Assembly (NCBI RefSeq): GCF_000153925.1
Contig: NZ_DS264358.1
Location: 62,001-126,000, forward strand
Reading direction: 5' to 3'
Origin: [Ruminococcus] torques ATCC 27756
GTDB lineage: Bacteria; Bacillota; Clostridia; Lachnospirales; Lachnospiraceae
Length of the DNA stretch: 64,000 nucleotides
Shown here: in pieces, positions 15,496 through 54,077 of the stretch
Layout: each line of letters starts with the position of its first letter
Position numbering within the stretch: the stretch's first letter is position 1
The notes under the pieces: model-generated
What the model was told of the DNA's origin: nothing
The model's input: the letters and a program-made list of their open reading frames with translations, nothing else
The model's database searches: none
Position numbers and translations under genes: made by a program

Positions 15496-16512
15496 ATGAA
15501 ATACATTTCATTTGCAATTCCTTGTTATAACTCAGAAGCCTATATGGAAAAAGCGATCAACTCAATCCTTATCGGAGGAGAAGATGTCGAAATTCTTATC
15601 GTCAACGATGGTTCAAAAGACGGAACGCAGGAAATCGCCGAACGGTACGAAGCTCAATATCCGACGATCGTCAAGGCGATCCAAAAAGAAAACGGAGGAC
15701 ACGGCGATGCAGTCAACTGCGGACTTTCTCATGCCACAGGAAAATATTTTAAAGTAGTAGACAGCGACGACTGGGTTGACGAAAGCTCTCTGTTTAAAAT
15801 TCTTGAAACAGTAAAAACATTTGTGAAAGAAGACACACTTGTCGATATGGTAATCTCAAACTATGTTTACGAAAAAGTCGGCATGGAACATAAAAAAGTG
15901 ATCCGCTATGACAATGTGCTTCCCGAAAATACGATTTTTCACTGGGATGAGATCGGACATTTCCGGCTCGACCAATATATTTTGATGCACTCCGTTCTTT
16001 ATCGGACAGAGATGCTGAAACTGTGCCAGTTAAAATTACCGAAGCACACTTTTTATGTTGATAATATTTACGTGTATTATCCGCTTCCGCATGTACGCAC
16101 CCTTTATTACCTGAATGTCGATTTCTACCGCTATTTTATCGGGCGGGAAGATCAGTCCGTCAACGAAAAAATCATGATCGGAAGGATAGATCAGCAATTA
16201 TTTGTAACCAAGACAATGATCTCCATGTATGAACTGCGGATGATCTCAAGTAAAAAACTGCGAAAATATATGGTTAATTATCTTGCGATCATGATGACTG
16301 TTTCATCCATTTTATGTATCCGCTCTAAAAAACCGGAGAACTTAACTAAAAAGAAAGAACTGTGGAGCTACTTAAAACGAAAAGATTACAAAACTTATAT
16401 GAAGATCCGCTACGGTATACTCGGACAGACGATGAATCTCCCGGGAAGATCCGGACGTAAAGTATCTTCTCTTGCATACAGCGTTGCAAGACGCCTGATC
16501 GGATTTAACTAA
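15496..16512 (+). CDS. Family 2 glycosyltransferase
   Basis: A 338-aa GT-A fold glycosyltransferase: N-terminal IPCYNSEAYMEKAI, nucleotide-binding VNDGSKDGT (37-45), and the metal-binding VVDSDDW (DxD at Asp89-Asp91). It transfers a sugar from an activated donor, probably to a cell-surface polysaccharide or lipid; donor and acceptor cannot be inferred. The second ATG (15496) is chosen over 15469 because AGGAGGT lies 5 nt before it. No membrane helix is obvious, so it is likely a peripheral cytoplasmic enzyme. Its own promoter and terminator make it a single-gene unit outside any polysaccharide cluster. Confidence 0.88.
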   Translation: MKYISFAIPCYNSEAYMEKAINSILIGGEDVEILIVNDGSKDGTQEIAERYEAQYPTIVKAIQKENGGHGDAVNCGLSHATGKYFKVVDSDDWVDESSLFKILETVKTFVKEDTLVDMVISNYVYEKVGMEHKKVIRYDNVLPENTIFHWDEIGHFRLDQYILMHSVLYRTEMLKLCQLKLPKHTFYVDNIYVYYPLPHVRTLYYLNVDFYRYFIGREDQSVNEKIMIGRIDQQLFVTKTMISMYELRMISSKKLRKYMVNYLAIMMTVSSILCIRSKKPENLTKKKELWSYLKRKDYKTYMKIRYGILGQTMNLPGRSGRKVSSLAYSVARRLIGFN

Positions 16513-16556: not shown

Positions 16557-16570
16557 TAATTTTCAATTTT

Positions 16571-16738
16571 TTGTAACAGTTCAGCCATACAGTGTACGGG
16601 AAGCACAAAACATGTCTGCATGTTTTTGCTAACGGACATCTGTATGCGCTAAGCGCCCATTTATGAGTAAAACAGTGGCGTCAGCCACAATAAGCACGTG
16701 GTGCGGTTTTGCGAATGGCGCGTGCTGAATTGTTACAA
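16571..16738. repeat. Palindromic intergenic element, full-length copy upstream of the tRNA pair
   Basis: Terminal inverted repeats TTGTAACAGTTCAGC (16571-16585) and GCTGAATTGTTACAA (16724-16738) match with one change. Inside lie a variable hairpin arm, AGCGCC pairing with GGCGC, and a GC hairpin GTGGC-GTCA-GCCAC. The same order occurs in the copies at 38488-38853 and, in reduced form, at 36863-36921. No coding frame is convincing. It could be a MITE-like element or a structured RNA. Confidence 0.7.
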
Positions 16739-16773
16739 TTTTTTCATTTTTTCATTTTTTTTTAAAAAAACAC

Positions 16774-36862: not shown

Positions 36863-36921
36863 ATTGTAACAGTTCAGCTATACAGCGCGATTTTACGAAT
36901 GGCGCAGACGAAACTGTTACT
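36863..36921. repeat. Short copy of the palindromic intergenic element in the murC leader
   Basis: TTGTAACAGTTCAGC at the left and AAACTGTTAC at the right frame GCGCGATTTTACGAATGGCGC. The GC hairpin and variable arm of the long copies are missing. It lies between the murC promoter and its ribosome-binding site, so it would be transcribed. Confidence 0.65.
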
Positions 36922-38482: not shown

Positions 38483-38487
38483 AACCC

Positions 38488-38853
38488 CAGTTCAGCCCAT
38501 CTCCGTGCTTGTAAGCATAAGTCATACTCGTATGACTTTGCGAACAAGTACCGAGATGGAGTGAGCGCCTTTTCATGAGCAAACCGCGGCAGCGCCGCTT
38601 TGAGTCCGCAGGACGTGTTTGCGATTGGCGCGGGCTGAACTGGGAGACTCCCTATACGGCGAGCGCCTTTTCATGAGCAAACCGCGGCAGCGCCGCTTTG
38701 AGTCTGCAGGACGCGTTTGCGATTGGCGCGGGCTGAACTGGGAGACTCCCTATACGGCGAGCGCTTTTTCATGAGCAAACCGCGGCAGCGCCGCTTTGAG
38801 TCCGCAGGACGCGTTTGCGATTGGCGCGGGCTGAACCGGGAAAAACGCGGCAG
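38488..38853. repeat. Tandem palindromic elements with 98-bp period upstream of dnaD
   Basis: The first unit (38488-38641) is framed by CAGTTCAGCCC and GGGCTGAACTG and contains a variable arm (CATCTCCGTGCTTG with CAAGTACCGAGATGG), GAGCGCC/GGCGC and a hairpin GCGGC-AGC-GCCGC. Near-identical 98-bp copies follow from 38642 and 38740, each lacking the variable arm, then a partial tail with the GC hairpin. The 574-nt gap 38335-38908 holds no convincing gene. Confidence 0.75.
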
Positions 38854-38908
38854 CGCCGCTTTGACCTTCACAAAACACTTAAGAATAATGAAACAGGATG
38901 GAGTAAGT

Positions 38909-53815: not shown

Positions 53816-53910
53816 TGAGACCTTCAATCATCGGAAGCGCCGAAAGGCACGTCCCGGGATTGCAGGCGATTACCAACATCCCGGGCAACCCCGAACTTTG
53901 GCTCGTCGCC
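53816..53910 (-). promoter_or_regulatory. Second structured segment of the rplJ leader with shared motif
   Basis: Between the attenuator and the ribosome-binding site, CCCGGGAT can pair with ATCCCGGG. The second arm begins CAATCCCGGGACGTGCC, related to the motif in the pfp leader and the SDR terminator. It may form an alternative fold that affects readthrough or translation. Confidence 0.4.
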
Positions 53911-53913
53911 TAT

Positions 53914-53948
53914 ACAAAAAACCTCTGCGACAGAAGACACAGAGGTTT
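53914..53948 (-). terminator. Attenuator hairpin in the rplJ leader
   Basis: AAACCTCTG (53948-53940 on the reverse strand) pairs with CAGAGGTTT and runs into TTTTTT (ending at about 53915). It lies between the L10-binding leader and the gene, the position of an L10-controlled attenuator. Confidence 0.7.
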
Positions 53949-53973
53949 ACAAATGTTCTTTTTAAAAAGAATT

Positions 53974-54038
53974 CGTATCTTCCTCGGCAGGCGTTCTCAA
54001 CCTTATGCCTAACGGCACCTGCTGTCTTCGGCAGTCAA
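53974..54038 (-). promoter_or_regulatory. Ribosomal protein L10 leader (autoregulatory RNA)
   Basis: The reverse strand carries GACTGCCGAAGACAGCAGGT and, after a short arm, CCTGCCGAGGAAG, the conserved core of the Firmicutes L10 leader that binds the L10(L12)4 complex. An intrinsic terminator follows. Known behaviour of the family: excess L10-L12 lowers expression of its own operon. Confidence 0.85.
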
Positions 54039-54048
54039 TTACTTTTAT

Positions 54049-54077
54049 AAAATATCACTACTCATCCAAATTGTCAA
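54049..54077 (-). promoter_or_regulatory. Promoter of rplJ-rplL inside the end of the Rpn gene
   Basis: On the reverse strand TTGACA (54077-54072), a 17-nt spacer and TATTTT (54054-54049). The -35 box and most of the spacer lie within the last codons of the upstream gene, whose stop is at 54058. Confidence 0.7.

Follow-up and report, generated by a model that had tools for sequence, protein, structure and literature searches.

Within the IS66 family of transposons, the ISBst12 group consists of single-ORF elements, and one of its members, ISDge4, has ends GTAACTGCTCAGCA and GTGACTACTCAGCA, a direct repeat of 8 bp and one gene, which encodes a transposase of 449 aa (PMC12898284). Short folded repeats are known from other bacteria. 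BOX and RUP elements of pneumococcus are small, interspersed and predicted to fold as RNA, and BOX elements contain a variable number of an inner module and have ends related to ISSpn2 (PMC3049150). Correia/NEMIS and ERIC sequences are MITEs with folding transcripts for which an effect on mRNA processing has been proposed, orientation-dependent in ERIC; they have TA motifs at their termini and long stem-loops (PMC2229807). Clostridiales-1 (RF01699), typed in Rfam as an sRNA gene, was rated probably an RNA and probably not cis-regulatory, and the accessible text of that report gives no function for it and does not describe it as mobile (Weinberg et al. 2010, PMC2864571).

Here we analyse an intergenic element in a 64,000-nt stretch of [Ruminococcus] torques ATCC 27756 (contig NZ_DS264358.1; hereafter the window), the features of which are collected in Table 1. 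Our reading, to which we assign a probability of roughly 0.8, is that the element is a MITE with IS66-type ends and an RNA-like body that is under selection and related to Clostridiales-1. Each part of this reading has precedent in BOX, NEMIS or ERIC. The 98-bp tandem units at 38563-38856 of the window recall the variable inner module of BOX, although sequence, ends and hosts differ from those of BOX and RUP as far as these are described in the sections of PMC3049150 at hand, and the accessible accounts of Correia/NEMIS and ERIC contain no multi-branched fold common to unlike transposon ends. In the literature searched, some of it in partial text, we found no precedent for one RNA core on two sets of transposon ends.

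Table 1 Features of the element and its copies in the window.
Feature	Position	Strand	Remarks
Full-length element, almost certainly a MITE, GTAAC...GTTAC	16573..16736	+	164 bp
Left target-site duplication AATTTTTT	16565..16572	.	flank sequence
Right target-site duplication AATTTTTT	16737..16744	.	flank sequence
Left terminal inverted repeat GTAACAGTTCAGCC	16573..16586	+	same as one end of the L091 IS66-type transposon
Right terminal inverted repeat, imperfect	16723..16736	-	element end reads CTGAATTGTTAC
P1 long hairpin	16586..16646	+	sequence varies among copies; site of the G-U over A-C strand bias
Right module: GCGCC/GGCGC stem, AUGAG/CGAAU, GUAAAAC/GUUUUGC helix, two-hairpin junction	16653..16721	+	
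Hairpin GTGGC-GTCA-GCCAC	16675..16688	+	in right module
Hairpin GCAC-GTG-GTGC	16694..16704	+	aligned copies: C-GNA-G 81/130, C-GNNA-G 35/130
Internally deleted 55-bp copy	36866..36920	+	both terminal repeats kept; duplication absent (5/8 bases)
Divergent full-length copy	38484..38646	+	R1 E 1.2e-23; outermost ends altered
Two further tandem right-module copies	38661..38856	+	98-bp spacing; first unit 38563-38660

The element is preceded by a 347-aa ORF that ends at 16512 and followed by a tRNA-Gln/tRNA-Pro pair, and its terminal inverted repeats are 14 bp long. No ORF of at least 80 aa overlaps it, and it is too short to contain one. An earlier note on this DNA had described a palindromic family with terminal repeats and a covarying inner hairpin, and these parts are where it placed them: TTGTAACAGTTCAGC occurs at 16571 (and again at 36864), GCTGAATTGTTACAA at 16724 and the inner hairpin GTGGCGTCAGCCAC from 16675, whereas the variant hairpin GCGGCAGCGCCGC, in which a T-A pair is correctly described as replaced by C-G, occurs at 38586, 38684, 38782 and 38847. 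Its account of the second site needs amending, as the supposed copies at 38488 are actually one full divergent element (38484-38646) followed by right-half tandem copies at 98-bp spacing, and the outer repeats said to be kept there retain the inner GTTCAGC/GCTGAAC at 38486 but end in CCCAG instead of GTAACAG. No target duplication was found in the flanks of this divergent copy. The single T-A to C-G change is, taken alone, insufficient evidence for selection on structure.

The plus strand of the window copy is predicted to fold as RNA at -68.9 kcal/mol (z -5.8), a value equalled by none of 200 shuffled sequences; the minus strand reaches -56.5 kcal/mol (z -3.9), and the 38486 copy has a z-score of -7.4. 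The apical loop of P1 reads UCUG in the window copy and CUYG in most relatives, and the AUGAG/CGAAU motif could form tandem G-A pairs. A chance palindrome is ruled out by the fold z-scores, the copies found throughout the genus and the covariation described below. A hammerhead-like core, prompted by AUGAG...CGAAU, was rejected because the hammerhead core bases do not fit and Rfam gives no match. Nor does the site belong to a known Rfam family: a scan of the window at gathering cut-off returned no family there, and RF01699 did not match at this exact site even at E<=10. Between 16400 and 16960 there is one sigma-70-like match, outside the element on the tRNA side (shuffled sequences average 1.2), and, within the element, one terminator-like match on the minus strand. 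Elsewhere in the window, a ribosomal protein L10 leader occupies 53907-54049 (-); at the relative locus L066 an element copy (1430-1593) stands beside such a leader (1606-1749).

Further copies were sought with a covariance model, R1, built from an alignment (A1) of 38 copies of 155-170 nt in which identical sequences were taken once and L017 was left out. This is the search that the earlier note had set as a check on its proposal, and further copies do exist: in the own assembly R1 has 24 matches at E<=1e-3, a number that rises to 32 at E<=1 and includes parts of tandem arrays, and BLAST gives 38 matches at E<=1 in the own genome, 11 of which span at least 150 of 168 bases. Among relatives, which the note had also proposed to search, R1 has matches in 49 of the 58 genus genomes and in 34 of 299 family genomes taken one per genus, and BLAST finds the element in 47 of 99 genomes, the own genome being counted in all three surveys. 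Per-genome copy numbers from these surveys are lower bounds, since at most 8 (BLAST, 99 genomes), 50 (R1, 58 genomes) or 9 candidates (R1 and RF01699, 299 genomes) were scored in each genome. Head-to-tail arrays of 2-4 elements with a period of about 160 bp occur at G107:C3:77376-78020, G303:C56:8991-9473, G000:C26:37151-37575 and G000:C38:90046-90369, in addition to the 98-bp half-module array of the window. Plasmids or phages as the main spreading route receive little support. A search of plasmids for the element returned no match. Positions 1-87 of MT839594.1 (4,169 bp, Bacteriophage sp., human faeces) correspond to the right half of the element at 88.5% identity, and ten viral contigs contain the left end GTAACAGTTCAGCCAT exactly.

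Marks of transposition surround part of the copies. Exact 8-bp target duplications flank 27 of 134 distinct copies, compared with 0.32 for shuffled flanks, and 8-bp duplications with at most one mismatch flank 38 (0.91 for shuffled flanks); no exact 9-bp duplication occurs in the flanks of these 134 copies, 107 of which lack an exact duplication. The 27 exact cases comprise 25 different 8-mers, so that a few represent orthologous copies. The duplications are T-rich on the plus strand of the element. Three internally deleted forms of 55, 63 and 81 bp (L023, L019 and L022) have duplications matching at 8/8, 8/8 and 7/8 positions, and other internally deleted forms, including the one at 36866 in the window, have none. 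A short length, the lack of a coding gene, terminal inverted repeats, a fixed 8-bp duplication and an autonomous element with the same ends are the features by which MITEs are recognised, and all are found here, the autonomous element in relatives; the element is almost certainly a MITE with IS66-type ends.

The autonomous counterpart emerged from a PF03050 search of 99 genomes, which yielded 30 loci that were then scanned for the element ends. The transposon at L091 measures 1820 bp end to end, with GTAACAGTTCAGCC exact at one end and with one mismatch at the other, is flanked on both sides by the duplication CGAAAAAA, and has one long ORF of 485 aa, in agreement with the single-gene organisation of the ISBst12 group. 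Its protein scores 75.5 bits against PF03050 (cut-off 23.1) and 145.6 bits against NCBIfam NF033517, which is under the 180 cut-off of that model and therefore marks the transposase as a divergent IS66 member. L107 is the same stretch as L091 and comes from the same genus as the window element; L109 and L111, outside the genus, are autonomous transposons with the same ends. Searching a genome contig collection with the L091 protein returned 16 loci, L107 included, with carriers such as Roseburia inulinivorans, a Blautia MAG and several Lachnospiraceae MAGs. Five of these have paired ends matching at 15-16 of 16 positions and 8/8 duplications (L110 with the variant GTAACTATTCAGCC), one has ends at 14/16 and a 7/8 duplication, three have the ends and no duplication, and in seven, some of which are truncated, no such ends were found. 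Such ends were also not found at L103-L106, four more distant relatives of the L091 transposase from the genus. The IS66-type gene at L116 is bracketed by inverted repeats (near 111-161 and 2396-2446) that lack the GTAAC ends.

Ends starting with GTAA and an 8-bp duplication place the L091-type loci with the ISBst12 group, and in ends, 8-bp repeat and single gene they resemble ISDge4 (PMC12898284). The window element differs from this group in having no gene, and its interior beyond the ends is, on comparison by eye, unlike the L091 transposon. Because single-gene IS66-type transposons share the ends and the 8-bp duplications, the mover of the element is likely an ISBst12-like transposase. No match to an IS66 transposase was obtained in the window's own assembly, and mobilisation there would therefore be past or depend on missing sequence. 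A MITE of another type, at L224:2337-2509 (-), has ends GTAACTATTCAGCC and a 7/8 duplication; as the L110 transposon is bracketed by the same variant, this suggests that MITE and transposon ends were altered together.

The body of the element is kept folded by compensatory change. In A1, 97.8% of 1700 cells pair, compared with 89.6% after shuffling, and 137 cells are changed on both sides, compared with a shuffled mean of 37.0 and with none of 500 shuffles as high. The covariation score is 0.257 (0.103 shuffled), and sliding the partner columns by 1-3 positions lowers pairing to 31-44%. The two central proposals of the earlier note, that stem changes are compensatory and that structure is under selection, are borne out by these values. 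A larger alignment comprised 132 unique full-length copies (150-175 nt) from 156 rows minus two degenerate 167-nt rows; two more copies were removed for tree and loop counts, leaving 130. On the tree, 72 changes from one Watson-Crick pair to another fall outside the terminal stem. AUGAG is present in 125 and CGAAU in 122 of the 130 copies, the P1 loop reads G-CUYG-C in 115, and the last hairpin loop is C-GNA-G or C-GNNA-G in 116 (81 + 35). Copies from other genera also show the AUGAG/CGAAU motif, the GNA loops and the two-hairpin junction. Across the outer seven pairs, 131 copies contain 77 double-changed cells, of which 41 pair, compared with 13.7 of 30.4 after shuffling, and of 128 one-sided changes 30 lead to G-U and 52 to A-C. 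An optional inserted domain, CGTTTAGCACSGACCGRAGCGGAGCG, is seen in L243, a window-type copy, and in L378, a copy with RF01699-type ends.

Comparisons with RF01699 indicate that the element fold is related to that of Clostridiales-1, distantly and through intermediates. The distant copy L292 matches R1 at E 7e-11 and RF01699 at 66.1 bits, and is the only one among 13 sources above the 48-bit RF01699 cut-off; 8 of 10 tested R1-family relatives match RF01699 at E<=0.0042. In the reverse search of 30 RF01699 loci with R1, the best hit scored 23.8 bits (E 0.0012) and the rest had E>=0.054. The window copy reaches 13.1 bits and the top own-genome copy 28.0 bits, both under the cut-off, so that the window copy is a relative of RF01699 and not a member by Rfam's rule. 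The alignments share a closing stem, a long hairpin with a CUUG-type loop and the AUGAG...CGAAU helix; RF01699 copies likewise show a GNA-type hairpin, the optional domain is common to L243 and L378, and other R1-family copies come near the cut-off that one exceeds. Besides the low score of the window copy, the differences lie in the ends and in the RF01699 duplications of 7-8 bp.

RF01699 is above cut-off in 129 of 299 sampled genera, the own genome not being among them. Its flanks were studied in 70 loci, the best-scoring rows of the 299-genome search with several per genome, from which L315 was dropped for its short flank. As the right end varies, which defeats a duplication search at fixed offset, it was identified as the stretch matching the left end. 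Both matching ends were found in 50 of 69 copies, with a left end of GATRCCAGGGTCAAAA type and a right end mostly ending in CCAACATC, and exact duplications flank these 50 at 7 bp in 21 cases (0.84 expected from shuffled flanks) and at 8 bp in nine (0.17 expected). RF01699 copies consequently look like MITEs with ends other than those of the window family, and because of this one RNA core appears to ride at least two sets of transposon ends. A scan of 377 loci for the transposase of these GATRCCAGGGTCAAAAGG ends revealed no such transposon. Among 8 genomes searched for the pattern, the only candidate was L378, where two left-type ends face inward at a distance of about 2.1 kb; it was rejected as a transposon, since a truncated end and a full MITE there enclose host-type genes. 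A literature search by family name and accession, covering mostly papers outside subscription and partly in excerpt, returned no link between RF01699 and transposons; an elephant shark cDNA paper contains the words Clostridiales-1 and transposable.

Whether the fold acts as RNA or DNA can be approached through strand asymmetry. We folded 193 sequences in 86 clusters with G-U forbidden, which gives the two strands nearly equal treatment. Each single mismatch with pairs on both sides was counted one time for a given combination of cluster, position and type. On the plus strand of the element, P1 mismatches are G-U rather than A-C at 42:13 (P 1e-4), whereas the right module (7:6) and the terminal stem (5:8) are without this bias, which is confined to P1. 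In the 68 copies of a separate RF01699 set, the ratio for all stems together is 26:6 (P 5e-4). On the 130-copy tree, 48 G-U and 24 A-C events fall outside the ends (P 0.006), but the alignment places two subfamilies out of register at P1 columns 34-37, which raises the G-U count, and we therefore rely on the G-U-forbidden test. The predicted RNA is also stabler on the plus strand in 126 of 133 genus copies, in 60 of 66 rows that come for the most part from other genera and in all 68 RF01699 copies. A wobble bias on one strand of P1 suggests a single-stranded product, probably RNA, and strand-specific selection of the fold as RNA is, on this sequence evidence, probable. Of the two identities that the earlier note had offered, a non-coding RNA or a cruciform mobile element, the marks of mobility and the RNA-like character stand, and the cruciform is disfavoured, because a double-stranded form should lack the G-U over A-C bias seen in P1 and RF01699.

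Selection could nevertheless act on DNA, with hairpins, cruciforms or single-stranded hairpins serving replication or transposition and no RNA needed. Folded as DNA, the window copy likewise lies far beyond its shuffles (z -6.7), C-GNA-G loops, which are very stable in DNA, dominate one hairpin, and the unbiased right module and terminal stem fit this explanation. Single-stranded DNA would accommodate the bias in P1 that misfits a cruciform, yet IS66-type DDE transposition is not known to require a single-stranded form, and we regard selection on DNA as unlikely. A fold without function is very improbable. The arms of a passive palindrome could be corrected against each other by gene conversion, or covariation could arise from turnover of source copies, and the terminal stem is without a G-U strand bias as this predicts; arm correction, however, would neither preserve AUGAG/CGAAU, the C-GNA-G loops and the two-hairpin junction across genera nor favour G-U over A-C on one strand.

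It is also rather doubtful that these are domesticated repeats, formerly mobile and now maintained by host selection as terminators, attenuators or mRNA stabilisers. Nearly all copies are intergenic (an ORF spans 2 of 126), some stay at the same site between species, and copies with altered ends keep their terminal pairing as counted above, all of which would suit a host function. So would the orientation bias, in which 80 of the 111 copies with two usable ORF-based neighbours have the left one on the opposite strand, but these copies are not independent and oriented insertion into T-rich sites can produce the same bias. At 16 orthologous sites, moreover, the element and its 100-bp flanks are conserved to a similar degree, which gives no sign of host-level selection in place; the changes there comprise 4 double changes that keep pairing and 1 that breaks it, and 12 single changes that keep pairing as G-U and 11 that break it.

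Returning to a mobile element with an RNA-like body, we propose that an ISBst12-like single-gene transposase of the IS66 family recognises the 14-bp ends and inserts the element at A/T-rich sites, where 8-bp duplications would result, mobilisation presumably occurring in trans. The interior is a conserved multi-branched fold with RNA-type loops and not a shrunken L091 transposon. Its P1 stem is selected on one strand, and what is selected is most likely an RNA whose transcription starts in the element or reads through it; this RNA core seems to be carried by more than one type of transposon. Why selection would favour such a fold can be suggested tentatively: the transcript may be a compact, translation-inert module that lets the host tolerate insertions, and copies that fold well would then persist as sources. 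We put just under even odds on the wider proposal that Clostridiales-1 and its unrecognised relatives are mobile RNA cargo that captured or evolved at least two end types, borrows transposases and is selected on one strand.

RF01699 is widespread in the family. Its MITE-like copies, and a second MITE family that has unrelated ends and carries a relative, raise new experimental questions about Clostridiales-1. For a transposon-borne fold of this kind, a case can be argued from covariation together with strand bias, beyond prediction alone. If the wider proposal is true, Lachnospiraceae-like gut bacteria would harbour a transposable structured RNA of bacteria that serves either the element or its host.
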